Part shown: one piece after another, positions 4,328 through 42,693 of the stretch
How positions within the stretch are numbered: position 1 is the first letter of the stretch
Layout: each line of letters opens with the position of its first letter
Source: Enterococcus diestrammenae
Lineage (GTDB): Bacteria; Bacillota; Bacilli; Lactobacillales; Enterococcaceae
NCBI RefSeq assembly: GCF_009933255.1
Contig: NZ_MAEI01000003.1
Span: 1 to 47,072, forward strand
Length of the DNA stretch: 47,072 nucleotides
Direction of reading: 5' to 3'
Made by a program: the position numbers and the translations under genes
Notes under the pieces: generated by a model
The model's database searches: none
Told to the model about the DNA's origin: nothing
What the model saw: only the letters and a program-made list of their open reading frames with translations

Positions 4328-4366
4328 AGTTTAGTTTGGAAACAAAAAAAACATCATTTAGGGACA
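4328..4366 (-). promoter_or_regulatory. TGTCCC-N27 promoter (copy 1) for the coupling-protein operon
   Basis: On the minus strand TGTCCC (4366-4361) is followed by TAAA. Exactly 27 bp separate it from a -10-like TAAACT (4333-4328). The first gene starts 43 nt downstream. No TTGACA-like -35 is present at the usual 17-bp distance. The terminator of the previous unit ends a few bases upstream. Confidence 0.65.
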
Positions 4367-4369
4367 ACA

Positions 4370-4421
4370 AAAAAGTTACATACAATCATACGTAATTGCG
4401 TATGATTGTATGTAACTTTTT
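4370..4421. terminator. bidirectional terminator, perfect 23-bp hairpin after ssb
   Basis: The arms at 4370-4392 and 4399-4421 are exactly complementary over 23 bp around a 6-nt loop, with A and T runs at the stem ends. This gives a terminator in both directions. It lies 14 bp beyond the end of ssb and just before the promoter of the coupling-protein operon. Confidence 0.9.
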
Positions 4422-4434
4422 ATTCGATAAATAT

Positions 4435-4875
4435 TTAGAACGGAAATTCTTCGTCTAATTCATTTGGAAAACTATAATCCTCTTCTAAGTTATCATCAAT
4501 CAGGGGTTCCTTTTCATGTTTCTTTTTACGTGATTCTGAGTCTTCTTTTGTTTCCAGTAACGCAATACCTCCCTGTTTATCTGGTAGAAGGAAACGATAC
4601 CCTTTTTGTTCGCCATCTTCTGAAACATAAGGTCGATCGATGATTTGACCTTTGACAAGGATTAGTGATCCCACTGATAAAGCTTTTGAAAGAAATTCTG
4701 CCTGTTTACCATAGGAGACAACAGTATGGTAAGTTGATAGCATGCTGCCGTCATCTTGCTTGTAAGTTGAACTACAAGCAAACCCAAATGTTAATGTGGC
4801 CGTACCTTTTGCCGTTTGTGTTAGCCCTTTACTAGAAATAAATGTGACTCTACCATCTGCAATATAAGTTTGCAT
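4435..4875 (-). CDS. ssb: single-stranded DNA-binding protein (SSB)
   Basis: The product (146 residues) binds single-stranded DNA during replication or after conjugative entry. The N-terminal 105 residues fit the OB fold: a GRVTFI strand, TLTFGFACSSTY, the VVSYGKQAEFLSKALSVGSLILVKGQI core and a YRFLL strand. A polar linker leads to an acidic tail ending DEEFPF, the tip that usually recruits repair and replication partners (DDDIPF type). The protein is shorter and more divergent than chromosomal SSB, as expected for a plasmid copy. The ATG directly abuts the TAG of the upstream gene, so translation is coupled. It is the last gene of the 7.5-4.4 kb operon. Confidence 0.85.
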   Translation of the reverse strand: MQTYIADGRVTFISSKGLTQTAKGTATLTFGFACSSTYKQDDGSMLSTYHTVVSYGKQAEFLSKALSVGSLILVKGQIIDRPYVSEDGEQKGYRFLLPDKQGGIALLETKEDSESRKKKHEKEPLIDDNLEEDYSFPNELDEEFPF

Positions 4876-5352
4876 CTACTCTACCTCTTTTCCATCAGTT
4901 GTAACCACTTTGCCAACACCTGTAAAGTATTGGCTTGGCTCGATTGGTGTTCCCCCGGTAACAATCGGAAAGGTGATTGGTTCTCCTGCAGCTGCGCCTT
5001 CTGCTTGTTCCTTCAACTTCTTAGTTTTCTTGTCAAAGTCTTTAACATCATTGCTAAGCTTTTCAACTTGTTCCCTGGCTTCTTTTAGCTTTTCATTATT
5101 TTCATCAGTTGCGACAGTCAGAGTCAAATTTTTTCTTTGTAGTTCATTTTTTGTTTCAACAAGTTTATTGATCTGAGTCGATTGAGTTACTGTTAATTTG
5201 TCAATTTTCTTATTTTGATTCAAAAGTGTCCATGTAATTCCAGTTATCAAAAGAAGAAATAACGCTGCTAGTAGTGGCCATTTGATAACTTTTTTGGTAT
5301 TGCTGATGGGCTTCGTACTAGGTTCACCAGTTAATGTCGCCGCATCAACCAT
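4876..5352 (-). CDS. membrane-anchored coiled-coil protein
   Basis: The 158-residue product starts at an ATG that overlaps the TGA of the preceding gene (ATGA). One membrane span lies near residues 27-44 (LLAALFLLLITGITWTLL). Residues 50-115 form a charged, heptad-rich coiled coil. The C-terminal 40 residues are glycine- and proline-rich. The expected layout is a short cytoplasmic N-terminus, one span and an extracytoplasmic coil. I do not recognise a family. Its place between the large coiled-coil gene and ssb in a transfer operon suggests a structural part of the transfer apparatus (inference). Confidence 0.7.
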   Translation of the reverse strand: MVDAATLTGEPSTKPISNTKKVIKWPLLAALFLLLITGITWTLLNQNKKIDKLTVTQSTQINKLVETKNELQRKNLTLTVATDENNEKLKEAREQVEKLSNDVKDFDKKTKKLKEQAEGAAAGEPITFPIVTGGTPIEPSQYFTGVGKVVTTDGKEVE

Positions 5353-7187
5353 CAACTGGCTAGTGCTTTTTTTTCAGTTTGGATATTCTCCCAACGAGCT
5401 AAGAACTGTTCTTTTTCATCTAGTGATTTTTTCTGTTCTTCATGTAATCGTTGTTGCATTTGTGCTTGTTGATTGCTTAACTCTTCTTTCTCATTTAACA
5501 AAAAATCGACTTGCGTTCTAAGTTCTTCCATATACTTAACCACTTTTAAATCTTGTTGACGTCGCATTTCTTCCTCTTTTTGAACAAGATTTACTCGTTT
5601 TGCATAATCATGTTCTCGCAAAAATTTCAATTCTTGCGTATCAAGAATAGTTTTACTTTGTTCGAACAACTTGTTTCCAACTTCGAGAGCTAATTTAGAA
5701 AAGTGGTTATCTAGTTCAACTTGTTTTTGCTGTTTCAATTGCGTTACACGCTGCATTTGCTCATCAAGCAATTCCTGCAATTTTCCTGTTTGATCATAAT
5801 AGGCTGCTTGATAATTTGATTGAGCTTGTTTCAAATATTTGGACTTAATCATTATTTCATTTTTTTCAATATTCTGTTCAAAGTCTTTTTGAATTTTACG
5901 TAAAGCATCTTCATACCGTTGTTTTTCCAGGGCGATTGCTTCCTCTTTTTCTGCTTCAAAATGTCTTTTAACAGATAGCCATTCAGTTTCTCTCTGACTT
6001 GCAGTCTCAGTTAAAATAGTGTCTTTAAGAGTATCTCGTTTATCTTGTTTTTCTACTTCAGACTGTACTTTTCTTAATAATTCTTTCTCGTAGTCATATA
6101 GTTTATGAGTAATCGCTTGGTGGATCAATACATTATTTGTAGTTTCTTGGTTGGTAATTTGAGAATTTAGTTCTTCTTTTAGTTGATTCAACTTCCAAGG
6201 AACATACTCAGTCTCGTATGGTTCATAATATTGTTTTTCAAAAGTTATCCGCTCAAATTTTGGAAAAGAAACTAAATATTTTCCTTCCACACTTGCAGGT
6301 AGTGGGGCAACTTTCGGATCAACAACATATTCATCTGTAACAGTTTGTCTTTTAGATAATGGTTCTTCGAAGATTGATACATTGTCATTGTCTTCATTGT
6401 AATCTGAGCTATCAAAGTAAGAAGTATCAACGCTATCACTCACTATTTCAGAATCATTCAACAGGTTATCTAAAATTGAATTCGAAGTAGGAATCGAGGT
6501 TTGATTAGATTGTTTATCTAAAACAAATTCATCACTAACGCTCAGTGTTTCTTTTTTGATAACAACAGGTGGAACGACAGATTCATCTTGTACTTCTGTT
6601 TTTACTTGATTTTCCTTACTAAAAGCTGGAATAACCACCTCAAAATTCCCATTTTCTACTTCAAATTGACTAGGAAATACAGGTAAAACCTCTTCAGTTG
6701 CCTTAACACTGTTTAAATAACTCGGATAGATAGCATCCATGAAATAAGTTCTTTTTTGATCGTAAGAATACCCACTAAAGGACTTATTACCTAAAATTGA
6801 CTCAACAAGTGGCTTAAGTAAGTTTTGGTAATTCCCATCAATAATAAATGGTTCCGAAAAAACTTCACCGTCTGTTGTCGGTTCTTCTTCGTCTTCTCTG
6901 TGTGCCACAACAACCTTTTTGATTATAATCTGATTGATTTTTCCTGTATTTACAAAAGTTTCTTTAAAGCGTAAGAACATTGCCTCGGCTTGGGCAAAAG
7001 TGATATATGGGAGACTTTCACTTAATTGTGCCCAATCTTTTGTCACTTCATCCTGATCGATTTTTTCAATAATCGCCTGGACTTCAGCATTACTAGGTGA
7101 AAACTCTTTATCCCATTCAATCTTCAAAAAATTCTCATCATGAATGGGACAAAGCTTTTTCTTCTTAAAAAAGCGTCCGAACTTCAT
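5352..7187 (-). CDS. large acidic, coiled-coil protein of the transfer operon
   Basis: The product has 611 residues with no signal peptide or membrane span. It begins with a basic MKFGRFFKKKK patch. Residues about 20-170 look globular, about 170-330 are acidic, serine-rich and probably disordered, and about 340-600 form a long glutamine- and glutamate-rich coiled coil. AGAAAGGAAGG lies ahead of the ATG. It follows the VirB2-like gene in the operon and overlaps the next start. I cannot assign a family. A cytoplasmic scaffold for the transfer machine is plausible but inferred. Confidence 0.7.
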   Translation of the reverse strand: MKFGRFFKKKKLCPIHDENFLKIEWDKEFSPSNAEVQAIIEKIDQDEVTKDWAQLSESLPYITFAQAEAMFLRFKETFVNTGKINQIIIKKVVVAHREDEEEPTTDGEVFSEPFIIDGNYQNLLKPLVESILGNKSFSGYSYDQKRTYFMDAIYPSYLNSVKATEEVLPVFPSQFEVENGNFEVVIPAFSKENQVKTEVQDESVVPPVVIKKETLSVSDEFVLDKQSNQTSIPTSNSILDNLLNDSEIVSDSVDTSYFDSSDYNEDNDNVSIFEEPLSKRQTVTDEYVVDPKVAPLPASVEGKYLVSFPKFERITFEKQYYEPYETEYVPWKLNQLKEELNSQITNQETTNNVLIHQAITHKLYDYEKELLRKVQSEVEKQDKRDTLKDTILTETASQRETEWLSVKRHFEAEKEEAIALEKQRYEDALRKIQKDFEQNIEKNEIMIKSKYLKQAQSNYQAAYYDQTGKLQELLDEQMQRVTQLKQQKQVELDNHFSKLALEVGNKLFEQSKTILDTQELKFLREHDYAKRVNLVQKEEEMRRQQDLKVVKYMEELRTQVDFLLNEKEELSNQQAQMQQRLHEEQKKSLDEKEQFLARWENIQTEKKALAS

Positions 7188-7220
7188 AGAATCCTTCCTT
7201 TCTAGCTTAATCTTATAACC

Positions 7221-7514
7221 TTATTTAAATCCGCCATTTTGGACAAAGGACACAGCAAATGTGATAATCATTGTCCCACCATATACAGCAACAATCGCAA
7301 TTAAAATATCAACCCATTTCTTTTTAATCGCTTGTTTCAGCTCACGGCCACCAAAAGAATAAGCAAGCCCAGTAACGACAACGACTAATGCAAAAATGGC
7401 AGTAGCAATAAGCTGCACTTTTTGAACGCCATTATTCGCCAAGGTGTTGGTCGATTGAAAAGGATCACCGGCTGCAAGAAAGGTTGGTAAATTACTAAAA
7501 ACTGATTTCAACAT
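7221..7514 (-). CDS. small two-span membrane protein, VirB2/TrbC-like
   Basis: The product has 97 residues from the ATG at 7514, which has TGGAG eight bases upstream; the GTG at 7523 is a less likely start. Two hydrophobic segments (about 36-54 and 71-92) flank a short basic loop (GGRELKQAIKKKW). A hydrophobic N-terminal stretch could be a leader. This two-helix hairpin with a positive loop is the shape of VirB2/TrbC pilin-like subunits and of small Gram-positive transfer membrane proteins. The assignment rests on topology and context, not on a sequence motif. It is the first gene behind its own TGTCCC-N27 promoter. Confidence 0.6.
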   Translation of the reverse strand: MLKSVFSNLPTFLAAGDPFQSTNTLANNGVQKVQLIATAIFALVVVVTGLAYSFGGRELKQAIKKKWVDILIAIVAVYGGTMIITFAVSFVQNGGFK

Positions 7515-7551
7515 ATAAAACACTCCATTTCGTTTGTTTTCTTACACGCAT

Positions 7552-7590
7552 ATCTTAGCCCGAAAAAAATTTTTTTATTTTTTCGGGACA
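7552..7590 (-). promoter_or_regulatory. TGTCCC-N27 promoter (copy 2) for the VirB2-like to ssb operon
   Basis: TGTCCC followed by GAAA lies exactly 27 bp before TAAGAT. The start codon is 38 nt further on. In this copy the spacer is almost pure A then T and its ends (CCCGAAAAAA / TTTTTTCGGG) can pair. The element may therefore also act as the terminator of the Clp-type gene that ends at 7600. Confidence 0.65.
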
Positions 7591-7599
7591 TCAAAATTA

Positions 7600-9450
7600 T
7601 TAGCGTAGACTGACATCAAAAACTAATTCCCTTCGATCAACTAGCTCATCAACCATATTAGGGGCTTTCCCCGACACAGAAATTTCAAACAACCAGGTTT
7701 TCCCTTCATATTTAGGAAGTTGTATCAGTTGTTCAGCAATGGGTGCCAATACCTTCCGATTAATTAGCCGAGCAAGTGGTCTGGCACCATTATTGGCATC
7801 CGTCCCATTATCTGCTAAATAATCTAAAACTTCCTCAGAGTACAGAATACTTGCTTGTTGGCGTTTCATTCGAATATTAAGTAATTCTAGGTTTTTCTCT
7901 GCAATCTCTTTAATGACATCTCTACCTAGCATTTTGAAAATAATCTTATATTCAATCCGATTAATAAATTCTGGCCGGAATTCTGATTGCAATTCAATTT
8001 CCATACCTGCCATAAATTGTTGAAACTCACGTTCGCTGAGATTTTCTAAATCACCTTTTAACTCGGCATTTGTTTTAATTTTTTCGGCACCAATATTGGT
8101 TGTCATAATTACCAGTGTATTTTTGAAATTTATCAGTCGGCCCATTCCATCAGTCAATCGCCCGTCATCCAAGATTTGTAATAATAAATCATGTACTTCT
8201 TGATCAGCTTTTTCTAGTTCATCAAAAAGCACAATGGAGTAAGGATGGTGTTTTACTTCTTCGGTCAAAGTACCCTTTTCTGTTTGTGTTCCAAGCAGCT
8301 TAATACTTGATCCTGGTTGTGAATACTCCGACATGTCAAAACGAATCATTGCTCGTTCGTCATCAAAAAGTACCTCTGCTAAAGCTTTCGCTAGTTCAGT
8401 TTTCCCAACACCTGTCGTTCCCAAAAATAAAAATGTGGCTAATGGTTTATTTTCATCTTGAAGTCCAGCTTTCGATATAGTGACAGCATCTGATACAGAT
8501 TCAACTGCAAAATTTTGCCCTTTTACACGCTTTGTAAGCCGTTCTTCAACATCAGTGAGTCGGGTAACTTCATCCTTTAAAATCGTTGTCACAGGGATAC
8601 CCATGCGTCGCTTAATCACTGTTGCAATATCTTTTTCAGTCACGTGTGATTCTGTGCCATTTGCCGAAACAATCGTAGCTGCTTCATCCAACAGATCAAA
8701 TGCTTTATCTGGTAAAAAGCGATCCGTAATATATCGAATGGATAATTTAACAGCTTGTTCAATGGCGTCTTTATCAATTATTACCTGGTGAAATTTTTCA
8801 AAGGTAGGCTTTGCACCATCGAGAATGGCGATTGCTTCTGTTTTATCTGGTTCATTAACTTGAATTTTTTGGAATCGTCTTTCTAAAGCTCGATCACGCT
8901 CAATCGATAAATGGTACTCATCTAAAGTAGTGGATCCAATAATTTGTATTTCACCACGAGCTAAGGCAGGTTTAAGTACATTTCCTGCATCTAGAACATC
9001 ACCATTTCCACCTGCCCCCATAATCGTGTGAATTTCATCAATAAAAAGAAGGTTTTGTCCTTTCGTCTGCATCATTTCCTCGATTATTTTCTTGAACTTA
9101 AAGATAAAGCCGCCATCTTGATCATTCATTAGACTCGATAGTTCCAACGATCTGATGACTAACCCTTGAAGGCCCTCTGGTACATTTCCCTTCAAAATAT
9201 TAAAGGCTAACCCTTCAACAATTGCTGTTTTCCCAACGCCGGCTTCACCAATAAGCAACGGACTATTTTTTGTCTTCCTCATTAACGAAACACCAACATC
9301 TTCAATCTCTTGATCTCTTCCAAAAACCTGATAGTCTTCCGGCTTATGGGAGACTTTTTCGGTTAGATTTTCTGTATATTGATCTAGAAACGGTGTGTCT
9401 GATTCCTGGACAATAACAATATCTGTTTCATCTAATTCAGAAAGAAACAT
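7600..9450 (-). CDS. Clp/Hsp100-type AAA+ ATPase lacking the N-terminal and middle domains
   Basis: The product has 616 residues and two AAA+ modules. Module 1 has Walker A GEAGVGKT (68-75), Walker [11 protein letters not shown] (about 134-143) and the arginine-finger region [10 protein letters not shown]. Module 2 has [14 protein letters not shown] (about 345-360), VLFDELEKA and the C-terminal Clp small domain with [10 protein letters not shown]. Chromosomal ClpC and ClpB have about 810-860 residues. Here the N-terminal substrate domain is replaced by about 40 residues, and no long coiled-coil middle domain separates the modules. I see no ClpP-binding loop I can trust. It follows an acidic protein and TopB in one operon. 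A role in unfolding or remodelling transfer proteins is inferred. Confidence 0.85.
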
Positions 9451-9453
9451 AGC

Positions 9454-10215
9454 TTAGCCTTCTTCCTCTTCTGTTTGATTTTCACCATCATAAAATGGAC
9501 TTCTCCATTCACTTTGGGATTGAAAATTTCCATTTTTATCGCCTTCTTTAAATTGATTAAATTGGCTTTCAATAGATTCAGGTGTTTTTGTTGATTCATC
9601 TTTATCTTCAGCTGACAGTGGCTTAGATTCTTCTGTTACACCCTGTTTAATATTCATTACCGGACGTTTACGTTCCAACTTATTTTTTTTCGGTTGTTCA
9701 GCTGTACTCTCCTCTACCTTTTCCGGTTCTACAGACATTTTTTCTAAGTCATCCATGGATACCGTATCCAATTCAGTATGGATTTTTGGTAATTCAATAG
9801 GTGTTACAAGGTTTTCGTTTGGCACCTGATATAATTCTTTTAATTCTTCAGCTGAAACTTCAGGAAGCTCGTAGTCTTCTGTTAATAACGCATCATCCTC
9901 GACTGGTTCGACAATTGCAGTCTTAGGTACAAAAGGTTTCGCCCACTCTTTAGTAGATTCTGTCAAATCAACGTCTTCTAATGATGGCAAATCAACGGAA
10001 AATGGTTTAACTAATTGTTTAGTCTCTTTAGCCTCGGTTGTTGCTGAGATTTCAAGTTTAACCATTTCACCAATGCTAATATGAGATATGTCATTCACTT
10101 CCATTGGAAAGACAAACGTGGTTTCGGAACTTTGAATGGTGACAACAAGCATACTTTCTCCCCACTCCCCAACTTTAACTAGTTCTGCTTTTTTAACTCG
10201 TCCTGCAATTTTCAT
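9454..10215 (-). CDS. acidic, largely disordered protein between topB and the Clp-type ATPase
   Basis: The product has 253 residues. The first 70 could form a small beta domain (MKIAGRVKKAELVKVGEWGE... TTFVFPMEVND). The remainder is rich in Glu, Pro, Ser and Thr with no clear fold. AGGAG precedes the ATG. It is separated by three bases from both neighbours, so topB, this gene and the ATPase are one unit. I do not recognise it. An adaptor or substrate of the ATPase is one possibility from position alone. Confidence 0.7.
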   Translation of the reverse strand: MKIAGRVKKAELVKVGEWGESMLVVTIQSSETTFVFPMEVNDISHISIGEMVKLEISATTEAKETKQLVKPFSVDLPSLEDVDLTESTKEWAKPFVPKTAIVEPVEDDALLTEDYELPEVSAEELKELYQVPNENLVTPIELPKIHTELDTVSMDDLEKMSVEPEKVEESTAEQPKKNKLERKRPVMNIKQGVTEESKPLSAEDKDESTKTPESIESQFNQFKEGDKNGNFQSQSEWRSPFYDGENQTEEEEG

Positions 10216-12028: not shown

Positions 12029-12067
12029 ATAATCCCATAAGCTAGTAACTTTTCAGATTTCGGGACA
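12029..12067 (-). promoter_or_regulatory. TGTCCC-N27 promoter (copy 3) for the topB operon
   Basis: TTGTCCC followed by GAAA lies 27 bp before GATTAT (12034-12029), a four-of-six match to TATAAT. The topB start is 35 nt further on. It sits directly behind the terminator at 12086-12127. Confidence 0.6.
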
Positions 12068-12085: not shown

Positions 12086-12127
12086 AAAGAAAAAGAGCTG
12101 CTAATCAGCAGCCCCCTTTTTCTTTTG
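12086..12127 (-). terminator. terminator of the interrupted secreted-protein gene
   Basis: GCTGCT and AGCAGC pair around AATC and are extended by A-rich and T-rich arms. On the minus strand the hairpin is followed by CTTTTTCTTTT. It lies 20 bp past the end of the 12147-12770 frame. Confidence 0.8.
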
Positions 12128-12146: not shown

Positions 12147-12770
12147 TCAATCTGTTCGAATCTGTGTTTTTGTACTCACCAAATTTTTTCTTTGTTTGTC
12201 TTCATAATACTTCGTGACAACTTTTGTTTGAGCGTTGTTCTTACCGCCGCGGTAAATTTCAACCTTGTAATACTTCGCTGGTGCTCCCTTCGTTAGCTGA
12301 TCTGTGATTAATGTGGCTATACCCGACACTACTATGTTACTAAGTGGTGCAGTAGCTAAGAACACCAATACCTTAGCAATAGTATTAGCCCATGCCATCG
12401 GTCCTGTATCAGTCTGACCAGTATATGAGGAAACTAATTTTCATGATGTCGTTTTAGCAGCAGCAAATGTAGAAATTGCTGAATCAGCGTTAAGTCCTCC
12501 AATTTCTTGCCGATTAACAGGTACACTTGTTTCAGTTCCATCCGCAAATACTGCTTTTACCTCAGTGCTACTAATTGTTATCTTGGTACGAAGATTTGGA
12601 TCATTTTCCATCAGATAAAAAGTATAATCATCTTCTGATTGCTCTGTGGTAGTCGAAGCTGTTACGGCTGCAAACGTAACGGTTGGTACTTGCAACAACA
12701 TAAATCCTGATAAAAATGCAGTCATCCCTAAAGTAACAATTTTCCCCTTCTTCACAATTGATTCCTCCAA
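12147..12770 (-). pseudogene. secreted protein of 207 codons, interrupted by one in-frame TGA
   Basis: The frame opens with a basic start and a signal peptide (hydrophobic ILGMTAFLSGFMLLQVPTV-like core ending TFAA). A mature acidic domain follows. Codon 110 (12441-12443) is TGA. The same frame then stays open for 97 more codons, with a hydrophobic stretch (WANTIAKVLVFLATAPLSNI) and a basic tail rich in Lys and Tyr (KYYKVEIYRGG, KYYEDKQRK). TGG or CGA to TGA would explain the stop. The internal ATG at 12398 has no convincing ribosome site, so I read this as one gene with a nonsense codon. The family is not recognised. Its start lies inside the end of the preceding membrane-protein gene, and both follow a cre-type promoter. 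A secreted-effector and membrane-partner pair is one reading, not proven. Confidence 0.7.
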
Positions 12771-13192
12771 ACTTCAATCTTCAAAATTCTTTTCAAGAAG
12801 CATAGAACAAGTATTAGTACTATCTCACTTAGAGTCAGTACTAAATAGAATAGTGACGGACATTTTACATAGTCATTCCACATTAAAATTACAGATAATA
12901 TGAAAATGACAGTAGGGACAGTCAATATGATAATGGTTGGCCAACCAATATATCCAGTCTTTCTTGGTTTCTTACTCATAAAAGGAATTATTTCCCAGTT
13001 ATGCGAGTTATAGTGGGAAAATCTTTCAAGTACTATAAGGACAGCAGCAATTTTAAAGAAAATAAAACCAACTAATTGGAAAAACCAGTCGCCTCTAAAT
13101 TCTGCATTAGTAACATAGAATAGGATGAACAGAGATTCAGGAAACAGAACCGGTAACAATAAAAGTGTATTTACCTTGAATAATTTACTCAT
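12752..13192 (-). CDS. four-span membrane protein paired with the secreted protein
   Basis: The product has 146 residues with hydrophobic segments near 8-28, 35-56, 85-105 and 112-135. There are short basic loops including SKKPRKTG, and the C-terminus is basic. GAGGG lies seven bases before the ATG. The last 19 bases overlap the start of the downstream secreted-protein gene, so the two are translationally coupled. I do not recognise a family. Small polytopic proteins encoded beside a secreted protein are often immunity, export or sensing partners, which is only a suggestion here. It is the first gene behind a strong promoter with a cre site. Confidence 0.65.
   Translation of the reverse strand: MSKLFKVNTLLLLPVLFPESLFILFYVTNAEFRGDWFFQLVGFIFFKIAAVLIVLERFSHYNSHNWEIIPFMSKKPRKTGYIGWPTIIILTVPTVIFILSVILMWNDYVKCPSLFYLVLTLSEIVLILVLCFLKRILKIEVWRNQL
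12882..12920 (-). promoter_or_regulatory. possible intragenic TGTCCC-N27 element
   Basis: Inside the membrane-protein gene TGTCCC (12920-12915) is followed, after exactly 27 bp, by TTTAAT (five of six matches to TATAAT). The bases just after the box (TACT) do not match the intergenic copies. The next start is 112 nt away, longer than elsewhere. It may be chance. Confidence 0.25.
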
Positions 13193-13620
13193 ATAATCCC
13201 TCGTTTCGTTGTACTAGTCCGTGTCATTTATAGCGAGATTATAAATCATTACAAGTCGTTTTGCAAACGCTTACACAGGTTACTCATTCGTAACTTTCCA
13301 ATCAAATTCATCTTATTTTTTCATAAAATCTCATTCATGAATATTTGTAATAAAACTACCCAGCTATATCACCTAAAATCAAAAAAATTTTTATAGAAAT
13401 TGAAAAGTAAAAAGTCTCCTCGCTTTTTGGTTTTTACGATAGTCCTGACTCTTTCTCATTTCAGTAATCACTCCTGTACATCAACTATTTAATAAGAAAA
13501 TGATGGTAATTTCATATTTTTTTAGTAAGAAATTATTTCTATCTATTGTTTTTAGTCCTTTAATCAAGACCTTAAAAACACAAAAGTTATTCGGCTTAAT
13601 TTTTCCACCAACCTTTTAAC
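13193..13620. other. 428-bp intergenic region with promoter; otherwise empty
   Basis: The right-hand end of the 13.2-12.1 kb unit has its promoter and cre site at 13238-13275. The remaining 345 bp towards the end of the giant gene is AT-rich. I see no reading frame with a ribosome site and no clear terminator for the 2418-codon gene. Confidence 0.5.
13238..13275 (-). promoter_or_regulatory. sigma-A promoter overlapped by a cre (CcpA) site
   Basis: On the minus strand TTGCAA (13266-13261), a 17-bp spacer and TATAAT (13243-13238) form a good vegetative promoter 46 nt before the 13192 start. TGTAAGCGTTTGCA (13275-13262) overlaps the -35 box and matches the catabolite-responsive element consensus TGWNANCGNTNWCA at all but one position. 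Repression by CcpA when preferred sugars are present is the expected effect. Confidence 0.75.
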
Positions 13621-16600
13621 TTATCTAGATAATCCTTTTGACGGTCTTTTCTTATCATTATTCAACGATCTATTGATATTACGATTGTGCTTATATGGTT
13701 TAGTTTGTGCTTCAATATCTTTGATCAACTCTTTTGAAACCTTTTGAATCCTTGTCATTGATTGGCTTAGTTCCTTATCAGAAAGCCCTTGAAACCCTTT
13801 CGTAATTTTTTGCGTATCTTTTGTTGTACCTAGTGAAAAATGCTTTAAGATGATTAGACTTGCCACTTCTGATTCAGTTTGACGCAATGATTCAGGACGT
13901 GTGCTAGCTAGCGAAGAACTGTTAATAGTCGCCTCGCATAATCTATTGATCGATGCTTCAACATTTTCAGAATTCGTATTTTTCGGATTTAAAAAGATTT
14001 TTCGATTCGAAAAATCAATGTGCGAAGCTTGATCTATTTGATCACTTTCTGCAAGATTAATAGTAAATCCAATCTTTTTGGCAAAATTACTTAGTCCCTT
14101 GGTAAAGTCAGCGTAATGTGCCTCATTCGTTTCAAAGCGAAAATTCTTAGATGGCAGCACCAAATTTTTTGCCTCTTCTTTGAGGTTAGTTTGAGATATT
14201 TCAAATACTTTATAGGTGGTGAATTTTAACTTACCATTTGAATTCTTCAATTGCATTGAACACTTTTCAATCTTTCCAGAAGAAAGAAGTTTTAAGTCAG
14301 CCTTCGTTGCTTGTTTAAAAGGTTTGTACTTCAACTGCTTCTTATCGTTATATGTTAGTTGTCCATGTTCATCGACTACTGGTATAACATCCTCAGTTAT
14401 TGGCCGTAAAAGCGTAATTTGTGAATGCTCCCCTGCCTTCACTGATAAGTTTGAAGTAGTTATCGTTTGTTCCTTTCCGGTCTTTTTATTAATAAAAGTT
14501 TTTGACGCTTGATGAACGTCTTCTGGAGCTAATTGTAACTGGCTTCCAATTTTTTGCCATTGTTTAAATGTAGCAACCGCCTCTGCACCTGCCCATTGTT
14601 CCTGGATTAGGGCAACATTTCTAGGGGACAGATGAGGAAGTGTACTCATTAAGCTTACGTAATTTGTAAAACTTTCTGGATTACTGATAGTCCTTCGAAT
14701 AATCTTTATCGCTTGATCGTTTAATTGTTCAGCAGAAGCTTTAGTGTAGTCATACTTTTCAGGGACATTATCTAAGGATTTATCTATTTCTAGCATAAAT
14801 TCGTCAACTTCATTTTGAGTGCCTAGCTCATTAACTAATTCTCCTCTTTGGATCCATTTTGAAAGCTTTTGAATCTCATCATCAATATCAAATTCTGTTG
14901 ACCAATCTTGTCCATATGCTAGAAAACCAATAGATTGGTTATCTTTTAATACTTCTATCAGCCAAGGTGATTGCTCATTTTCAGCAAGACTATCGACAAT
15001 TTTATCACTATGAACTTGTAATGATAAAGCGTAGTTCTCGCCAATTTCAACTTGGTTTTCATAAAGGACGTTACCTGGTGTATCATTAACTATTTCCAGG
15101 TTAGACTCTTGTGACAAATTATCTACAATGTTTGGTAATTTTTCGTTTAAATCCCTAACAAACTGATACTTGGAAAATCTATTTTCTAGATCTTCATAGT
15201 CAAAATCGTTGCCTCCACTAGTAAAAGCTTTCTCAAATATACTTCTTTGAACATCTCCACCAAGGTACCAATCATCAATGAACTCGCTTTTAGAATGAAA
15301 TTCTCCCCCTGATCTACGGTTTTTATAAAACTCCCCTTTCCCATCAATTTGACTTACCCAATCTAATTGAACTCTTTGCCGATCAACACTAGTGATCTTC
15401 GCAACTTCATTAATCTGATGGTCATCTATTTCGATTTTTCGAAAGATTATTTGATCCACTTTAAGCGTATCCGTAGTTAGCCTCATTTTCTTCTCTGAAA
15501 TATCAATGTTATCAAAAGCTTCCTTCGCTTGTTTAGCTGTTTCTCCATATCCGATATAAGTCAAATTATAGTTCTCAATCTCTTTTTCAAGTAAAGAAGA
15601 CTGATAACCAATAGCTCCATATTGTCTACCGTTTGGATTAATAAAACTGGAATCCACGAACAAAACAGGATTATCATCATTATTTGGATGTGTACCAACG
15701 CTTACAGGTCGAAGATCAAGAGCATACCAATATTTATTGGAATTTCCAGTAGTATTTTTTTCTACTTGATTATCATTGTGTCCATCGACAACAGATACAA
15801 TTGATTCATTAGAATAATCAGGACTATCGTTGGTAGTGATATCACTTTCTAGAATACGTTTATTTCCGTTTTCATCTTCAAATGTCACACTCATTACAAC
15901 TGATTCATCTCGCTCAATAAACATGTCTAAGTCCATTAGATTTTCAAAAATCTTTTCTGAATTATTGGAAACAAAATATGGAATTCCCATTTTTTCGTCT
16001 GCATCAAAAATTACAATAGAATCTTCTGGAGCATTCATAATTTCACTATCAAGTTTGAGTGAAGGATCCTTGATTTGAACATCCTGAAATGCCTTTAAAT
16101 AATCCTGTTTAGTTAATAGACTATAGTTAAATCCACCCAGGGACTCTGATAATGTAGCAGTCTCCAAAGTACCATCATTGTTCTTATATTCCACCAATGC
16201 GTTTGATACTTTAGTATAAAGCTTTTCGCCTTTAGAATGCTGCGCCTCTTTATCTTCACCAGTAATGCTAGTAATATTTTCGATAAAACTATCAATTTTA
16301 CTTAATTTTGTCACTCCTGCCTCTCTACTTGCTTTTAGAAAGGCAGTGGCTATTCCACCAGGATCATCAGTTGTAATGCCAGTCAAATCGACTTTAATAT
16401 CTTTATAAAATATTAGCTGTCCAACAGTTTGGGTATCAGTAATTGGTATCTGCAAGAAATTGTTTAAGCATATCGCTTGTCTTTCTTGTTCTTTTAGAAG
16501 AACTGATTCTCGCTCAATTTCTGTCCAAGATTCTAAAAAGATATCTACGCTGTCAGTTAGATTACTATTTAACATTAATAATCTTGGATCCTCTCCTTGA

Positions 16601-19600
16601 TTATGTGTATACATCGCAATAACAGAATTTTTTATGGGAATATTAGATAATCTTTTATTATTTGTTCTTACGGAAATATTTGTTACCCAAGATAAGCCCC
16701 CATCTTCAAGCATTCGGAAACCTTCCATAATCCCTTCGTCTGATTGCATTATCGCTTTATCCATTTTTAGATTTTCTTTATAGCCCTCTGTGAATGGGTA
16801 GATTACATGATCGGTATTTATATTTTTCAAAAATTCATTCATCAACGAAATTTTTTGAACAGTTCCTCCCGAATTTAAAAGGAGTAGGCGATCTAAATCA
16901 ATCGATTTTCTCAGTAAATCATTATACAAGTCGATTTGAGGCGAAACCGATCCATTATCTTTGTACCTGAGTCCTACTAAATGGCCGAATTGCTCAGGAC
17001 GTACATTCACTGTATTGATAGTAAGTGTACCTAATCCCATAGTTCCAACTATGCTCCAGTTCCTATTTGCAAAGAGATTATCAAATTGGGCTGCGCTTTC
17101 ATATAATTTTGGTAATCTTGATTTGAACTTTGAGTCTTCGTTTGATATTTCATGAAATTTTTCTATATACGTGTTACTATTAGTGTACTGTTGAGAGAGA
17201 ATTAAAGCGGAGGAAGCTCCGAGGTTTGTCGGCACTTTCCATCCAATAATGTTATTGGTAAAAAGGTTTAGCTTGTCGAACTCAGCCTGTTGGCCGTCCA
17301 GACCCTGACGGTCTTTTTTTTGTTCGTTTTTTACATAATTTTCACTGCCGGGTTCAAAATCTTCCCCTAAATAATAAGTCCCTCTGCCATTCTCATCCGT
17401 ACCAAAAGCCCAATAATCATATGGATTATTAACCTCGTCTGACAAATCATTCCAGGTTGCTTCAATTAATAAATTGGGAATAGCTTTTGATTCAGCTAAT
17501 TCTTTTACTTTAAAGAAAGCTTCTTGTAATTCTTCATAGGAAGTATAGTTCCGAATACCGTCGCCAAGAATCTTTTCTACTTCACTAGCAATAGGTAGCT
17601 TATTTGCCTCTGGTACTTCCCACTTTTTTATTGATTCATCTGACAGGTCAACATTTACTTCAGAAAGCTTTAATGTATACACGTCATCCTGTTTAATAGC
17701 TTTAAAAAGAGAATCAATATCAATATCAGCCAAAGTGCTTGCTACATTACTATATCCATGAGAATCAAGTACTTCTTTCAGAGAAATAAGGTCAGCCCCA
17801 CCACCATCAAAAAAGTTATTTTTATTTATTGTATCCAACATTTCTTGAGTCATAGGATCATCAACTGGGTAATCATAGTAACTTTCAATTATCGTTTCTG
17901 GAGCAGCTGGAAATGTAGGTTCTCCTGTTTCTTCATCTATTTCGTAAACAACATCGCCAATTTCTTCATGAACTAAATCCACTAATGTACGTAGTGAAAT
18001 CTTATCTTGTATTGGGCTTTCTAAGTTTTCTTGTTGAGTGATTAGATATTGATTCCAATCAACTTTAGGTTCATTGTTTGGATTAGGAGGTAAGTCAGAC
18101 CGAATAGGAATATTTTTGATATCGGCAAACTTATTAATAAAGTCTTTCCCACTCTTATCGTTGTCAACAGCAAAGACAATTTCAATTCCTTGTTTTTCAA
18201 ATACGCTCATAGGATCTTCGTACTTTTCTAAGACCTTATCCATCTGTTGTACAAATGTTTCTTCTTTCACTTGTTCCAAAGGCGTTCCAGGGAAAAATGT
18301 ATCATGAAAATATTGACTGACAACAGCCTCTTTTAACCCTTCCATTGAGATTAGTTTGGAATCTGATAAACCATCTTGATGCAACTGGTAGTAGCTCATT
18401 AGATCAGTTGCAGATTCAAAAAAGATCAGTTTCTTAGGCTCACCAATAGTGACACTTGGGCCAAAATTACCATCGCTATTTCGAATGATTTCTTTCAATC
18501 TCCCATGTTTTGGGTATTTCTCATTGTTTTCAGTAATCCCTTGTAAGCTTGCACCCACAAGTTGTTTTTCTTGATTGAAGTATTTGAAAACGACTACCGT
18601 CTCACTTGGACTGTCTTTGAAATAACGAGTAGCTTCCGCAATCATTCCTTGTTGTCCAAAGAAGGCGATAGTATTTTCATTTAAGCCTCTAATATCATTT
18701 AAATAAGATTCTGCTTTATTCATTGATTTATGATCTTTCAACAGATAATCGAAGGGTTCCTTCACAGTATTTAGACTTGATGGGTCTACTTCTTGTAAAT
18801 TTGGATCATTTAAAAAAGATACAGCGTCTTTAAACTTCAGTTCCTTGATCTGACTAACAAGAGAAATGACATCACCTTGCATATCCTTTGAAAACCACTT
18901 AAACGTATTAGTATTTGGGAAAATAGTAAGGCTATCATGTTCAACCCATTTATATGTCCTACCCGTCTTTACTAAATCCATTCCAAGTGCATTTGCGACA
19001 TCTAAAATATTACGGTTTTTAGCGTATGCCAACTTATCTTCAAATGGTTTATCCTTTTTTCGAGTTGCTACCTTATCGGCTTCAACATCAGCTGCAACTA
19101 CTGTTTGTTCATTAGTTTTACCATTCTTAACTTGGTCGTCAATTTTTTCAGCTTGTTTCATGATTTGTGGCGACTCGACACTGATTGTATTAAACTTTAG
19201 AATATTTTCTTTGTAAATTGGGAAATGCAAATCAAAGTACTCATTTAGTTCTACTCTCATCTGTTGGTTAAAACATTTATACTGTTCTGCATCTATATAA
19301 ACATCAGAATTTTTGATAAAACTTGTTTGTAATCCGGCATTAGAAGAGTAGATTTCAAATGCTCTTGCAAAAACTTCGGTTGGAGTGCCATAATAATCAG
19401 CTTTCATTTTTATTGGTGATTTCTTTGATAACCGTTCGATATTCTCTCGGTATTGACGGATTAACGATTTAAAGTCAGGCTGCATGCTGAGACTACCATT
19501 ACTAAAATCCAAAAAATGCCCATATTCGTGAATAAAGGATTGAATACCCACTCCACCTGGGGCATATTCAGCTCCCTTTGAAGTGTCTCCCCCATTTCGA

Positions 19601-20920: not shown

Positions 20921-21124
20921 TTACTTCTCTTCTACATCAACTTCTTGTTCCTCCAACATGTCAGCGACTAATCGGTCAAACTCGATATACACGGTATTCA
21001 AAACACGCATAGCAACTTCTTTCTCTTTCTTTGAATCCAACTTTCTATAGTTTTCACTAAGTTCAACTAAAAACCGTCTATATGCCGCTGTATTGAATCC
21101 AACTGCATTTCCTTCTGATTCCAT
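20921..21124 (-). CDS. small acidic protein ahead of the giant gene
   Basis: The product has 67 residues from the ATG at 21124, with GGGGGGAAG upstream; longer starts would lie inside that ribosome site. The ATG overlaps the stop of the preceding gene (TAATG), so translation is coupled. The sequence is helical and acidic, ending DMLEEQEVDVEEK. I do not recognise it. It belongs to the unit that ends with the polyvalent protein. Confidence 0.65.
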   Translation of the reverse strand: MESEGNAVGFNTAAYRRFLVELSENYRKLDSKKEKEVAMRVLNTVYIEFDRLVADMLEEQEVDVEEK

Positions 21125-24521: not shown

Positions 24522-24530
24522 TTCAACCAA

Positions 24531-27112: not shown

Positions 27113-27151
27113 ATTATATTGGAAAAATTTTAGTTTTATATTTTCGGGACA
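27113..27151 (-). promoter_or_regulatory. TGTCCC-N27 promoter (copy 6) for the mobilisation operon
   Basis: TGTCCC followed by GAAA lies 27 bp before a perfect TATAAT (27118-27113). The start codon is 31 nt further on. No -35 box is present. This is the clearest copy of the set. Confidence 0.7.
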
Positions 27152-29199: not shown

Positions 29200-29238
29200 A
29201 ATATAATCTAAAATATGATTATCCAAATTTTAGGGACA
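29200..29238 (-). promoter_or_regulatory. TGTCCC-N27 promoter (copy 7) for the 29.2-27.5 kb unit
   Basis: GTTGTCCC followed by TAAA lies 27 bp before TATATT (29205-29200, five of six). The start codon is 34 nt further on. No -35 box is present. Confidence 0.65.
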
Positions 29239-36922: not shown

Positions 36923-36961
36923 AGATTAACTGGATAAATCAAAATCTATTTTTTCGGGACA
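36923..36961 (-). promoter_or_regulatory. TGTCCC-N27 promoter (copy 8) for the pilus operon
   Basis: GTTGTCCC followed by GAAA lies 27 bp before TAATCT (36928-36923). The start codon is 52 nt further on. The T run of the adhesin terminator begins five bases upstream of the box. Confidence 0.65.
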
Positions 36962-36965: not shown

Positions 36966-36996
36966 AAAAACGAAGTAGACAATTTTGTCCACTTCG
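36966..36996 (-). terminator. terminator of the giant adhesin gene
   Basis: CGAAGT and ACTTCG flank an inner GACA/TGTC pair with one mismatch, followed on the minus strand by five Ts. It lies about 30 bp past the adhesin stop. Confidence 0.8.
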
Positions 36997-37026
36997 TAAT
37001 CCTGATATTTATCTAAATACCATTAC

Positions 37027-40000
37027 TTATTTAGAAGCCTTTGATTGTTTCATTCGTTTCCAAAAAGCAACGCCTACACCAGAAATCATTGCAATACCCA
37101 TTGCAACTACACTGAGTTTTGTAGCACCTTCGCCTAGTTTTGGCAAAACAGCCATAACACCCTTTGGATTAGGTTTAGAGGCTTCAGGTTTCTTTGGTTC
37201 TGATGTAGAAGGTTTTGTAGCTTTTTCTTTCACCTTATTCACTCGTTTTTCAGTGACATGCTTACTTTCCAGATCATTCGAGTCTTTCCATGATTGATTT
37301 GCGACATTTACAATTTCATACCCATCTTTTAGACCATCTTTAACAGTCATTGGCATTTCGATCTTGTAAAAATCGCCTAATGGAATTTTTTTAGTATCAA
37401 TTATAGATACTTCTTTCCCTTCAGAGTTTTTCGCCTTTGCAAAAACATTTGCAGTCACAGTAACTTTCGCTCCGTCAACTTTAATTCTGAAATTATCAGT
37501 TACATCTTTACCTTTCGCATTGTAAACCCGGATATCGTCAACAGAAACTTTTAATGCCTTCGAATCAAACGTATCTGTCATTGTTAAATCTGTCAGCTCA
37601 CTGGTTTCGTCAAATGGTGTAGTGTCCATCCACAATTGATAATGGATTTTACTTCCACTTTTAACGTTATCAGTATTCATGTTTTCTTTCTCGTTATTGG
37701 TCTTCTTATCAGCGTAAGGATTTTTATTTGTCTCCTCGTAACGATCCTTCATTTCTGAATCATCGTCTAGAAGCTTGTTACCTTCTAAATCATATTTTCC
37801 CTTAGACAGATCAAATTTATGGGGTGTTGGCGTTGGAGTACTTGTTTGTACTTCATTGGATTCTTCATCATGATCATTGATTGTTTCAACAAACGTGTTC
37901 AGCACTTTATCAGAATCCTCAAACCGATAGAAATCAGCATGAATTGAAAAGCCAACTTCTTGGCGACTATTCTCATTTACAACTTTCAAAAAAGTATCTT
38001 GTGCTGTAAAGAGTACCTTTCCATCTCTATCTTCAGCTTTGAAGAATTCAGATGGTAATTTATCTCCTGCTTTATACTCACCAAAATCACGAGTTGCATA
38101 TGCAGCAAACGTTCCTTCAAAACGGTCAAAGTTTTCATCGTAATCATCAAGAATTGTCCATTTTTCAATCGGTTCTCGATCGCCAGGTTTAACCGATGAA
38201 TCTAACTCATAGACAAAACTAGAAGACAAAGCAACACGATTTCCATTAATGGAATCCCCACCATCCGTTTTCGTTACATCTTTCTGTGGTTTTTGAGGGT
38301 CACCTACAGGGTTCACACGACTCTCAGTCGGATGATCCAGTTGTGAGTGATTTGAATCAACTGTAATTTGTTTAGCCGAGTTAACAATATCACTACCTGG
38401 TTCAATATCCTCTTTCACTTTCGTAAGAAACTCAATTTTGTAATAATCTCCTAAAGGTACTTTTTAAGTATCAACAACTTTTACTTTTTCGCCTTTAGTA
38501 TTTTCGACTTCCTTGAACACATTTGCAGAAACTTTTAAAAGACCTTTATCAATTTCTACTTTAAAGTTCTCGGTTACATCTTTTCCCTCAGAATCATAGA
38601 CTTTAACGTTTTTAGCATCAACATCAAGCTTCGTCTCATCAAAATCATCTTCCATAGATAAAACGGTCAACTCACTAGTTTCATCAAACGGTGTGGTATC
38701 CAACCATAATTGATAATTTAGTTCGTCTCCTGGTAATACTGTTTTGGTATTCCAGTTCTCAGCCTGGTTATTATCCGTTTGATCTACATAAGGATCTTTT
38801 GCGGTGTCAGCATACCGATCATCGAGTTCAGAATCATCATCTAGTAACTCATCATCTGTCAAATGAACCTCATTACCCTTCAAATCAAATTTGTGTGGGA
38901 TTGGTTCTGGTGTTTTTGTATCAACGACGTTGGAATCTTCTTCATGATCATTTTTCGTTTCAGTAAAGACGTTTTCAACTTTGTCAGAAGGTTTTTCCCG
39001 GAAGAAATCTGCACGAATTTCATATTGAATTGTGACTTCCTTATTTTCGTTGATTGCAGTTAAGAAATCATCGGTTGCTTCAAAATTAACCTTTCCGTCT
39101 TTATCTTCTGCTTTAAAGTACTCGGCAGGCAACACGTCCCCGGCTTTGAATTCACCAAAATCAGTCAACGCATACACGTCATAGGTACCATTAAAACTAT
39201 CAGTCGTTTCATCGTAATCATCGAGAATTGACCAGTTTTTAGCTTCCGATTCCCGAGGCCCATGCATTTCACTTGAGCGTAGAACATAAACGAAATCTGA
39301 GCTTAACCCAACGTCTCCATGATTAATGGAATCTCCACCATCTGTTTTCGTGACATCTTTTTCAGGATCTTTTTCAATATTTGGAGTAGTCTTGTCAGTG
39401 AAAGTCATTTTAGATAAGCTGATAACTGCTTTATCTGAACTAATATCTCCAATACTGCCAGCTTCCTCGCCATTTGGATTTTGTTCGACAACATTATCTG
39501 TTATTGAGAATGTACGTTTTGAAAATGGTTGTGTGAAATCTTTATTATTACTTGCAGAAATAGTCAATAAGTCTTTTTCAGTATCAGTAACCATATGGAT
39601 ATAAATATCTTTAATATTATCGTAGCCTGGAATACCTTTTGTTTCTTGCACAATATAATCACCATACGGCAATGTGGCCATCGCATAACCATCTTCATCT
39701 GTTGTTGGGTTAACACCCGTCTTCATAGTGATAGGATCGCCTACCGTGCCCTCTAGTGGCGTTACGGTAAATTCAACACCGTTATAACCACTCTCAGCAC
39801 TTTCACCCAAAATCTCAGCTAATTTTTGGATTGTAATTTTTGCTTGAATGATTTGTTCTTTGGAATTGGTTTCAGGTGCAACGATATTTTCTGTTTTATC
39901 ATCTTTTTTCACTAGTTCAAAAGGATGTTCCGTTTGATCCAGAACGTAACCTTCAGGGGCATTGATTTCTTTCCAGAAATATTTCCCTAATGATAAATTC

Positions 40001-42606
40001 CCAATAGCAACGTTTAATTTGTCATCATCAACATTGATTACAACATTATCACCATGTTCGACAACCTCACCATTGATCAACGATTCAGTAACTTTCTCAC
40101 CCGAAAGCAGCTCTGCTTTTGGAATGTCAGACCACTTAACAGGATCGCCTTTTTTATGGGCCCTTGAACCTGTCGCATCGTCACCGTAATACAACGCATA
40201 TTCGGCATTGACCATATCAGCTTTCCCGTGTTGGTCTTTACCAGTATCCTTATCCTCTTTTTCTAAGGTGTTTTGCCCTTTAATTTCTTGGTTCGTCCCC
40301 GTCGCATCATCAAAAACTAACGCAGTCGTATTATTTTTCCAGGTTAATTCGACTGTCGTCTTTTTAAACGTATTCACAAAGCCATCACTGGATTTAATTT
40401 CTTCAATTTCATACTTACCTAATGGCATTTTGTCATTCGTTTTAGCAATTCCTTGTTCGTTGGTAGTGATTTCATAGGTCTTACCATCAGTCAGGCTAGT
40501 CAGCTTAAAGACATTGCCTTTCAATGAATATCTTTCGTTCCACAAATCAGTACCAGATTCGACACCTTTTTTCTCAATGGTAATTTGACCTAAGACTGGT
40601 GTGTTTACCACGTCACTCGTATCTAGAACAATTTCTGTTGTCTGATCCTTATAGGTTAGTTCAGCATTATAAGTCTTAGTATTCGTAATTTGGCCGGTAT
40701 CTTTGTCAACACTGGAAGCAATCTCTTCAACCTTGTACTTGCCTAACGGCAACTTCTTAGTTGTGGCTTTCCCATTTTTATCTAAAGTAATCGTATCTGA
40801 GTATTTCCCATCAGCTGAAGTAACCTTGAACTGGATTCCTTCAAATCCGTATAAGCTATTAGGCAGAGTTTTCCCATAATCCGTTAACGATTTGTTTACT
40901 GTAATTTGCCCCATGACCGGTGTATTTACTACATCACTCGAATCGAGTACAATCTCTGTATTTTGATCCTTATAGGTTAATTCAGCTTCGTAAGTTTTTG
41001 TGTTTAACAGCTGACCGGTACCTTTATCGACACTGGAAGCCACTTCTTCGATTTTATATTTACCTAGTGGTAACTTTTTAGTCGTGGCTTTACCGTTTTT
41101 GTCTAAAGTAATCGTATCTGAGTATTTTCCATCAGATGAAGTGACCTTGAACTGAATTCCTTCAAAACTATACGATCCATTTGGAAGATTTTTGCCAAAG
41201 TCTTTCAACGATTTATTGATAGTAATTTGACCTGTAACGGCAGTATTTTCAATATCGGCCTTAATGGTCTCCCCTGGTTTTACAGTAACAGTTGTGTCAT
41301 CTCTAACTGTCTGTCCAGTGCTTGACCAATTACTAGATTTTTCACGCAATGTGTACTTACCTGAAGGAATCTGTTTTGATTTACCTTTCCCATTTTCATC
41401 TAATGTAATGGTATCTACTACTTTGCCGTCTGCATCGACTACATCAAACTTAATTCCTTCAAAGCCATAATGTCCGTTCCATTCATCTTTCCCATATTGG
41501 CTAGTAGATTTATCAATTTCAATATAACCACCCAAAATATCCGATAAATTCCAAGGTGTATTCCCAAACATACCCGTTACAATATCCATATGGTTATCAA
41601 TGTTATCCGTGTATTGATATTGAACAGTATTTTTGTTCCATTGTTTTAGGACAAGATAACTATTTTCTGTTAACTTGGTGGAATCTTCTTCAATCGCACC
41701 GTTTGATGTAGATTTAAACCCATTACCTGACTGTGAAAGTGCCGTATCATTTGAGAGAATATATCCAAGGGCACCTTCACCACCCATCGTCGCCAACTGA
41801 GAAGCATCAATATCTGACATTTTAATTGGCATTAAAGTATCATCCGGAAGCGCATCACCAGTATCAGAATTAATCAATGAAACACGATAAGAAACTTCTC
41901 GAATCCATCGCATAGCCGTGTCATCTGTTGAAGATCCACCAGTGCTCCCGCCTTCAGAACCGCCTTCACCTTCAGCATCGCCTTTAGTTGCATTAGATCC
42001 CCAAGCTAGAGTAATAACCCCACCTTGTGATTTAGCACCTAGCAATGCGTGTGGTAATGCATTTCCTGCTGGTGACTTGGCGCCCATAAATGTAATTCCT
42101 AGTGATAAAGGGATATCTTTATTTGTTTTGGTATCCAATGCAGACCCAACATTTTCAATATAAGCTGTTTCACCAGGGAGTAATTTAATCGCTTTATCTG
42201 TTGGCAAAAAACCGTCTGCCCCAAAAATGTCTCTTGGTGATTCTCCGAAGGATTCCAAATTCGAACCATTATAAAGCGAGGTCTTGCTGTTCCAAGAAAC
42301 CTGGTTTACCACTACTGGGGGTGTTTTCATTTCCTCAACGAGACTGCCAATAATATCCGTAAACTCTTTACTACTTAAATTGTTTGTAGTAGCTTTTAAG
42401 ACTGGGGCACCATTTATTGTCCCAACTTGTTCTACACCACTTGGCAATGTGAGCGCATAGGCAATGATATCACCTGCATTTGGAAGTAAAGTAATTCCTC
42501 CACCCAAAGTACCTAGTATTGCGGCACTATACAACAAACGTTTTCCTGTTCGAGAAAAAAATTTTTTACTTCGAACATGTGAAGCTTTTGAAGGCTTATT
42601 CTTCAT
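37027..42606 (-). pseudogene. giant wall-anchored adhesin (1859 codons), interrupted by one in-frame TAA
   Basis: The frame starts at ATG 42606 (AAAGGAGAG upstream) with a long signal peptide. An N-terminal region of about 360 codons precedes four Cna-B/SpaA-like repeats (about 370-770; two are nearly identical) and another such domain with an E-box-like EINAPEGYVL. Two tandem modules then begin DVTKTDGGDSIN and contain DDYDE and LWLDTTPFDETSEL, like the C-terminal domains of antigen I/II and aggregation-substance adhesins. The end has LPKLGEG, a membrane span and a basic tail. Codon 1381 (38464-38466) is TAA. The next codons (KVPLGDYYKIE) match KIPLGDFYKIE of the second module, so a lysine AAA probably became TAA. 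The truncated product would lose the last module and its wall anchor and be released. LPKLG is an odd sorting signal. Confidence 0.88.
40567..41250 (-). repeat. two nearly identical tandem Cna-B-like repeats inside the adhesin
   Basis: Two adjacent units of about 105 codons share long identical stretches such as YSDTITLDKNGKATTKKLP and LGKY(K)(I/V)EE. The two DNA copies differ at scattered, largely third-position bases, so the duplication is not brand new but is kept similar. Flanking units are more diverged. Confidence 0.75.
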
Positions 42607-42654
42607 AATCCAACTCTCCTTTAACCTTATTTGTTTTCATTAAAATACAGGCTA

Positions 42655-42693
42655 ATTGTATTCAAAAAAAAAATTATCAAAGATTTAGGGACA
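42655..42693 (-). promoter_or_regulatory. TGTCCC-N27 promoter (copy 9) for the adhesin gene
   Basis: GATGTCCC followed by TAAA lies 27 bp before TACAAT (42660-42655, five of six). The start codon is 49 nt further on. The spacer contains ten consecutive Ts on the minus strand. Confidence 0.65.

Follow-up and report, generated by a model that had tools for sequence, protein, structure and literature searches.

The window analysed here is the whole of one contig (C3, 47,072 bp) in the 3.16-Mb genome of Enterococcus diestrammenae, which comprises 54 contigs. It carries genes of a transfer element, and since the window is a single whole contig, the element continues elsewhere. On the minus strand, nine sites combine a TGTCCC box with a -10-like hexamer at a distance of exactly 27 bp. 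This pattern is real, being non-random and specific to the spacing. According to the sequence evidence given below, the sites are probably sigma-A promoters of separate transfer operons, which lack a -35 element and depend on one class II activator.

The nine pairs had been listed in an earlier sequence-only reading, and all of them were verified: the box is TGTCCC, except for TATCCC at 23927, the spacer is 27 bp in every case, and the hexamers are as listed. The site at 4328–4366 (-10 TAAACT) precedes an 88-amino-acid (aa) gene and the open reading frames (ORFs) of the coupling protein, and the site at 7552–7590 (TAAGAT) precedes a unit with a TrbC/VirB2-like pilin. The sites at 12029–12067 (GATTAT) and 21534–21572 (TACGGT) precede a unit encoding a topoisomerase, a 253-aa protein and a ClpB-like protein, and a unit with a 2418-aa polyvalent protein, respectively. 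The site at 23889–23927, which precedes the MobL relaxase, is the odd one of the nine, with TATCCC and TCTAAT, and is weaker. The site at 27113–27151 (TATAAT) precedes a unit with ribbon-helix-helix-like genes and a nuclease, and that at 29200–29238 (TATATT) a 321-aa gene. The last two, at 36923–36961 (TAATCT) and 42655–42693 (TACAAT), precede an adhesin/pilin/sortase unit and a large adhesin. The box is followed by GAAA, TAAA or CAAA in eight of the nine sites, the exception being GAAT at 21572. The distance from the -10 hexamer to the gene is 28–51 nt at seven sites using the listed ORF starts, and 29 nt (21572) and 22 nt (23927) using the start codon behind a Shine–Dalgarno-like sequence.

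TGTCCC occurs 22 times in the window, 18 times on the minus strand. Eight of these boxes are intergenic, all on the minus strand, which is the gene strand, and all eight have NANNNT at 27 bp. As had been noticed, boxes inside genes mostly lack a -10 hexamer at this distance: NANNNT is present in one of 14 (24685, plus strand, CAGGTT). The box at 21572 was scored as intergenic by taking ATG at 21504 as the start, the longest ORF there starting at TTG 21573. In the gene list used for the intergenic counts and the shuffles, one boundary (21124–21500) is wrong by a few bases. With the TGTCCC–TANNNT spacing allowed to vary between 8 and 44, a distance of 27 was found for seven of the 22 boxes and the next best distance for three; the background probability of TANNNT is 0.031. 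Seventeen intergenic stretches are at least 60 bp long, and nine contain a box. The best pair of word and distance over these 17 stretches is TGTCCC at 27, in seven stretches. In 300 dinucleotide shuffles, the maximum for any pair was five stretches, reached in two shuffles.

The proposal that a position matrix be built from the nine sites was followed, and a sequence-only profile of them (R1) was run on the own genome at an expectation value (E) of at most 10. Sixteen matches were obtained: the nine training sites (24 bits for the weak site 23927, itself a training site), five new sites on contig C12, all with a spacer of 27, and two weak others. One of the latter, C51:2898, lies inside a gene on the opposite strand; this one and C7:50979 were not retained. 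The C12 sites are located within 8 kb (107,493–115,350) on one strand of a type IV secretion gene cluster. Four have TGTCCC and one has TGTCCT, with TANNNT at exactly 27. They precede genes for an 808-aa VirB6-like protein, a 136-aa protein, a DUF5592 protein followed by VirB4-like ORFs, a CHAP/glucosaminidase protein and a 118-aa protein. These results indicate that the regulon is wider than the window and also includes type IV secretion genes. As relaxase and coupling-protein ORFs are on C3 and the VirB4- and VirB6-like genes are on C12, we infer that the two contigs belong to one element. C12 was read from 60,000 to its end. Its G+C content is 0.45 and 0.40 over 60–100 kb versus 0.34 at 100–120 kb. 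Judged by its G+C content, the 60–100 kb part is possibly chromosomal, and the element could thus be either integrated or a plasmid.

In a blind count of words and distances before start codons, TGTCCC at 27 was the top 6-letter word both in the window and in a 20-kb piece of C12. The distance is fixed, since at 25, 26, 28 and 29 there is at most one case per stretch. For the extended box T-R-T-C-C-Y-N-AA, 13 of 28 occurrences in the window and the C12 piece together are followed by TANNNT at 27, as are two of 19 in other stretches of the own genome. The few conserved letters would suit chance, or one promoter duplicated by descent. This origin is hardly conceivable, given the shuffles, the clustering of the new sites in a narrow region of C12, and the variation of flanks and spacers from site to site outside the motif.

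The 14 enterococcal sites were aligned by numbering the last base of the -10 hexamer as -7; the profiles did not include the start positions. T is found at -51 in 13 of the 14 sites, TGTCCC at -45 to -40, AAA at -38 to -36, A at -29 in 12, T at -18 in 13 and TANNNT at -12 to -7. Position 6 of the hexamer is T in all 14 and position 2 is A in 13. At the predicted start, T is present at -1 in 10 of the 14 and a purine at +1 in 13. The sequence-only reading saw no -35 box, and none is detectable: the spacers give 2.43 of 6 matches, compared with 2.67 for shuffled spacers. With a spacer of 27 rather than 17, the box is located one helical turn above the usual -35 element. The spacing and the missing -35 thus bear out the geometry that had been read as the place of a class II activator.

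This geometry bears on two other explanations. The box might be the operator of a repressor, as for ArtA of pSK41, with polymerase alone firing once the repressor leaves. According to the parts of the literature consulted, ArtA is a ribbon-helix-helix repressor with six sites (PMC6540685), and the conjugation regulators described in reviews are mostly repressors; the mobilisation unit in the window encodes ribbon-helix-helix-like proteins as well. A repressor, however, could work at a variable distance and with a -35 element in place, whereas here the distance is exact and the -35 element is lost; the box also lies outside the core promoter. We therefore regard repression as unlikely. Alternatively, in a two-part promoter, a sigma-like or polymerase-appropriating factor encoded by the element would read TGTCCC in place of the -35 element. 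The rigid 27-bp geometry without a -35 would fit such a factor, and the box letters vary between lineages (see below), as with a dedicated factor. The -10 hexamer and start resemble those of ordinary sigma-A promoters, however, and no sigma-factor domain was found in the proteins scanned. We also know of no sigma factor with a 27-bp spacer, and this explanation appears quite improbable.

Five of the nine window boxes have, on the minus strand, a terminator-like hairpin that ends no more than about 25 nt upstream of the box. The hairpin at 4373–4418, a 20-bp perfect inverted repeat that would be a terminator on both strands, abuts the box at 4366. Those at 21581–21612 and 36970–36997 abut the boxes at 21572 and 36961, and those at 12090–12119 and 42715–42740 are located upstream of the boxes at 12067 and 42693. 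Several units start just behind a terminator, which makes transcription of these units from one master promoter unlikely. Part of the T signal at -51 may come from the T-runs of these terminators. In the stretch L115, two of six boxes have a hairpin. A hairpin and T-run shortly before the box could also suggest that the conserved stretch acts in RNA, as a leader or in read-through (e.g. antitermination), rather than as a promoter. This is very improbable, because a fixed -10 with an initiator a set distance away is typical of promoters, and no hairpin was found at the remaining boxes.

Under the preferred explanation, an activator would bind T-R-T-C-C-Y-N-AAA at -45 to -36, one helical turn above the -35 place. 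The bound activator would touch RNA polymerase in the class II manner and recruit the sigma-A polymerase, and 13–14 separate transfer operons would be opened together. That a protein binds the box, that it activates, and that the element encodes it are inferred from this arrangement. The reading as a promoter family thus stands as to the box position, the missing -35 and a regulon that takes in units for transfer, mobilisation, pili and adhesins. The term 'master switch of the whole element' overstates the case, as the region 42764–46859, the genes at 12147–13192 and a helix-turn-helix (HTH) gene at 210–455 have no box directly upstream. Long intergenic stretches without a box are present at 13193–13620 and 456–1199; they adjoin the three small genes at 12147–13192, whose products appear by eye to be partly membrane-bound or secreted, and the HTH gene, respectively.

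No description of the site was found in the openly accessible literature. It is conceivable, although somewhat unlikely, that the sites form a new promoter class, in which a factor of an undescribed family, encoded by the element, would replace the -35 contact of RNA polymerase by reading T-R-T-C-C-Y-N-AAA exactly one helical turn higher. If so, the host polymerase would not recognise whole transfer regulons of Gram-positive elements before the factor is produced, and factor and box would have co-evolved, with TGTCCC in the enterococcal and TATCCY in the Ligilactobacillus lineage.

A distant relative of the element is CP104730, a 530-kb plasmid of Ligilactobacillus salivarius H1. The identities between proteins of the window or C12 and those of CP104730 are 68% for the ClpB-like protein, 59% for VirB4, 48–51% for the coupling protein, 45% for VirB6 and 33% for the relaxase. 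The whole plasmid was covered with a profile of 14 sites (R2), and 135 of the 530 kb were scanned by letter. R2 gave full-length matches on the gene strand at 5931, 12454, 13510, 23952 and 264878 (with a copy at 507530), which read TATCCC or TATCCT, then A-rich, with exactly 27 bp and TANNNT. The scan for T-R-T-C-C-Y at 27 added 20600, 527474 and 288629 (TGTCCC). A profile of 23 sites (R3) was then run over 1.07 Mb. It gave 27 matches of at least 16.9 bits, consisting of the 23 training sites, three copies and one new site (21853, TGCCCT); the best match in other, unrelated sequence has 14.7 bits. A further site, 301182 (TACCCT), was accepted because of its exact geometry and its gene. In total, CP104730 has ten candidate sites with a changed box (TATCCY in seven) and 27 bp. 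In its stretches, T-R-T-C-C-Y-N-AA has TANNNT at 27 in nine of 40 cases, one duplicate being counted. Among 11 L. salivarius sites, T is present at -1 in seven. Another plasmid, pMP1046A, has TACCCC, 27 bp and TATACT at the ortholog of the 264878 gene.

Three orthologous loci are boxed in both elements: the TrbC-like pilin (7590 and 527474), the DUF5592 gene (C12 110846 and the weak site 301182) and the nuclease unit (27151 and 264878). Loss of the box–spacer pair in related plasmids, the outcome that the sequence-only reading had named as fatal to itself, was not observed, as the geometry recurs in CP104730. A closer match is found in G098, a genome of another genus of the same family, whose 6,233-bp contig C13 is 98.7% identical to window 3498–9730, with both sites (4366 and 7590) intact. 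Being a near copy, it tells little about conservation. The near-identity is read as recent spread of the element. A third G098 match (on C69) has no DNA in common with the element.

Several observations weigh against the activator regulon. The R2 matches on CP104730 are weak as single sites (E 0.02–0.7), and two of the ten candidates are weak: 301182 has 13.5 bits, which is below the 14.7 bits of unrelated sequence, and no clear start codon follows 21853. Of the ten, only six are located directly before an annotated start (12454, 23952, 264878, 288629, 301182 and 527474), and one of these, 288629, overlaps the end of the preceding gene; three others (5931, 13510 and 20600) precede an unannotated start codon. 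The purine rule is weaker in L. salivarius, at eight of 11 sites, and the blind count did not raise TATCC to the top in the stretches L115 or L014. On the C12 piece, TANNNT is present at 27 behind five of nine TGTCCC; four of these belong to the promoters, while the remaining one lies within an ORF on the opposite strand and was taken as chance. No hairpin stands against the box in any of the five C12 sites. Wider relatives, sampled in 13 stretches, showed no comparable set of sites, with T-R-T-C-C-Y-N-AA followed by TANNNT at 27 in three of 103 cases. Finally, no protein could be pinned down as the activator among the window and C12 proteins and the candidates examined.

The database scans for further relatives gave the following results. 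In 105 genomes of the family, 30 match R2 at E ≤ 0.05, and below E 0.001 only the own genome and G098 remain. A search of the family's 104 other genomes for the relaxase gave nothing at E ≤ 1e-30. Among 395 genomes of the order, 83 (the own included) match R2 at E ≤ 0.05, the best other at E 0.001; the matches are mostly partial and were read as background. R3 gave one weak match each in nine of 76 genomes of another family, and the neighbours of the best of them (G355) are unlike transfer genes. Scans of genome contigs and of viral contigs returned no relative.

Three window proteins, all encoded on the minus strand, were considered as regulators. The 81-aa Cro/cI-type protein at 210–455, the box-less HTH gene described above, is the sole Pfam HTH match among 40 window proteins scanned. 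The 165-aa protein at 24033–24530, before the relaxase, has an HTH-like stretch by eye and is 33% identical to an L. salivarius protein. One database homolog (98%) was found, and look-alikes recognised by eye precede relaxases of L. brevis and L. plantarum plasmids without a box. Its AlphaFold model, with a predicted local distance difference test score (pLDDT) of 43.6, is unusable. The protein is more likely a relaxosome accessory. The ribbon-helix-helix-like 102-aa protein at 26774–27082 is encoded by the first gene behind the box at 27151 and would be a candidate DNA-binding regulator or a relaxosome protein, neither role being proven. The model of the ribbon-helix-helix-like protein has a mean pLDDT of 79.5. 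Foldseek gave no match at E ≤ 0.001, and several of the insignificant matches are ribbon-helix-helix proteins. The first genes downstream of the box at 27151 are related to the final part of the gene that follows the box at 264878 in L. salivarius. Thus, a self-activating regulator could be encoded there, which is speculation.

Other candidates were rejected. A 251-aa HTH protein of L. salivarius, encoded between Rep and thioredoxin, has a sole homolog in the own genome, near the start of the 102-kb contig C53, with 37% identity over residues 3–128 of 251. This homolog, a 163-aa protein (L129 1519–2010), has no HTH half and sits beside a gene resembling a cytosine methyltransferase by eye, and the candidate was therefore dropped. 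The 188-aa HTH-like protein of C12 (L038 4941–5507) has homologs in 33 plasmid records and none in three L. salivarius stretches at E ≤ 0.1. Three of the 33 plasmids were read, and each has one TRTCCY-27-TANNNT match, taken as background. Homologs with 39.5% identity occur in many E. faecalis plasmids, several of them 36,331 bp long, and one such plasmid, as read, carries optrA and fexA. The Rep contig C15 gave two matches in the 40 of 56.8 kb read, also taken as background. As for known activator families, the part of the element that was scanned with Pfam, 40 window proteins and 10 of the C12 ORFs, has no match to FlhC/FlhD. ArpU and RinA families were likewise not found in Pfam with the same 40 and 10 proteins, nor in PHROGs or NCBIfam with 10 proteins each. 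A 'Sigma54_activat' match corresponds to the AAA part of the ClpB-like protein and is no sigma factor.

RinA and ArpU are late-gene activators of Gram-positive phages. If activator-driven as proposed, the present promoters would share this trait with the late promoters of such phages. SetCD and AcaCD of the SXT/R391 integrative and conjugative elements and the IncA/C plasmids act on 11 and 19 promoters, which have a poor -10, no -35 and the activator site at the -35 region in a class II arrangement (PMC4542580). The sites described here are similar in that many transfer promoters (nine in the window and five on C12) share one site. They differ in belonging to a Gram-positive element and in having a very short, non-palindromic box, whereas SetCD and AcaCD are FlhDC-type activators of Gram-negative bacteria. 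The regulon may work like that of SetCD/AcaCD, and it would be placed in that group by likeness only.

Gram-positive conjugation regulators, as far as the portions consulted go, are mostly repressors that act on one or few promoters (PMC6540685, PMC8014075). In pLS20 of Bacillus subtilis, the main conjugation promoter Pc is repressed by Rco and relieved by Rap/Phr (PMC8014075). The transfer machinery is related to that of pLS20: proteins resembling the C12 VirB6-like protein are, in many records, annotated as the pLS20_p028 family. Unlike the single main promoter of pLS20, nine boxed promoters, five with hairpins just upstream, are predicted from sequence in the window. The sites would also be like those of ArtA of pSK41, a plasmid protein with several sites before transfer operons (PMC6540685); ArtA represses from its sites, whereas the geometry here points to activation. 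If a dozen or more operons are under an activator, transfer would be controlled in a different way, with a logic near that of SetCD/AcaCD. The regularity of the sites makes them a simple marker by which such elements can be found, and offers a direct way to the activator.

Some other features of the window were observed. The coupling protein is encoded in two ORFs (1200–2732 and 2814–4034), whereas its relative in L. salivarius is a single protein of about 1011 aa. The window gene appears broken or frameshifted. The large adhesin is apparently split as well, into the adjacent ORFs 37027–38418 and 38464–42606. The 2418-aa polyvalent protein (13621–20877) contains DarA_C, LPD1 and toprim-like parts, and its N-terminal part is about 40% like proteins of many enterococcal plasmids; no copy of it was found in the G098 genome, which is 85% complete. 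The DNA matches of the window are all in Enterococcus plasmids, and a 1.4-kb region (42780–44177) is about 85% identical to an Enterococcus dispar plasmid.

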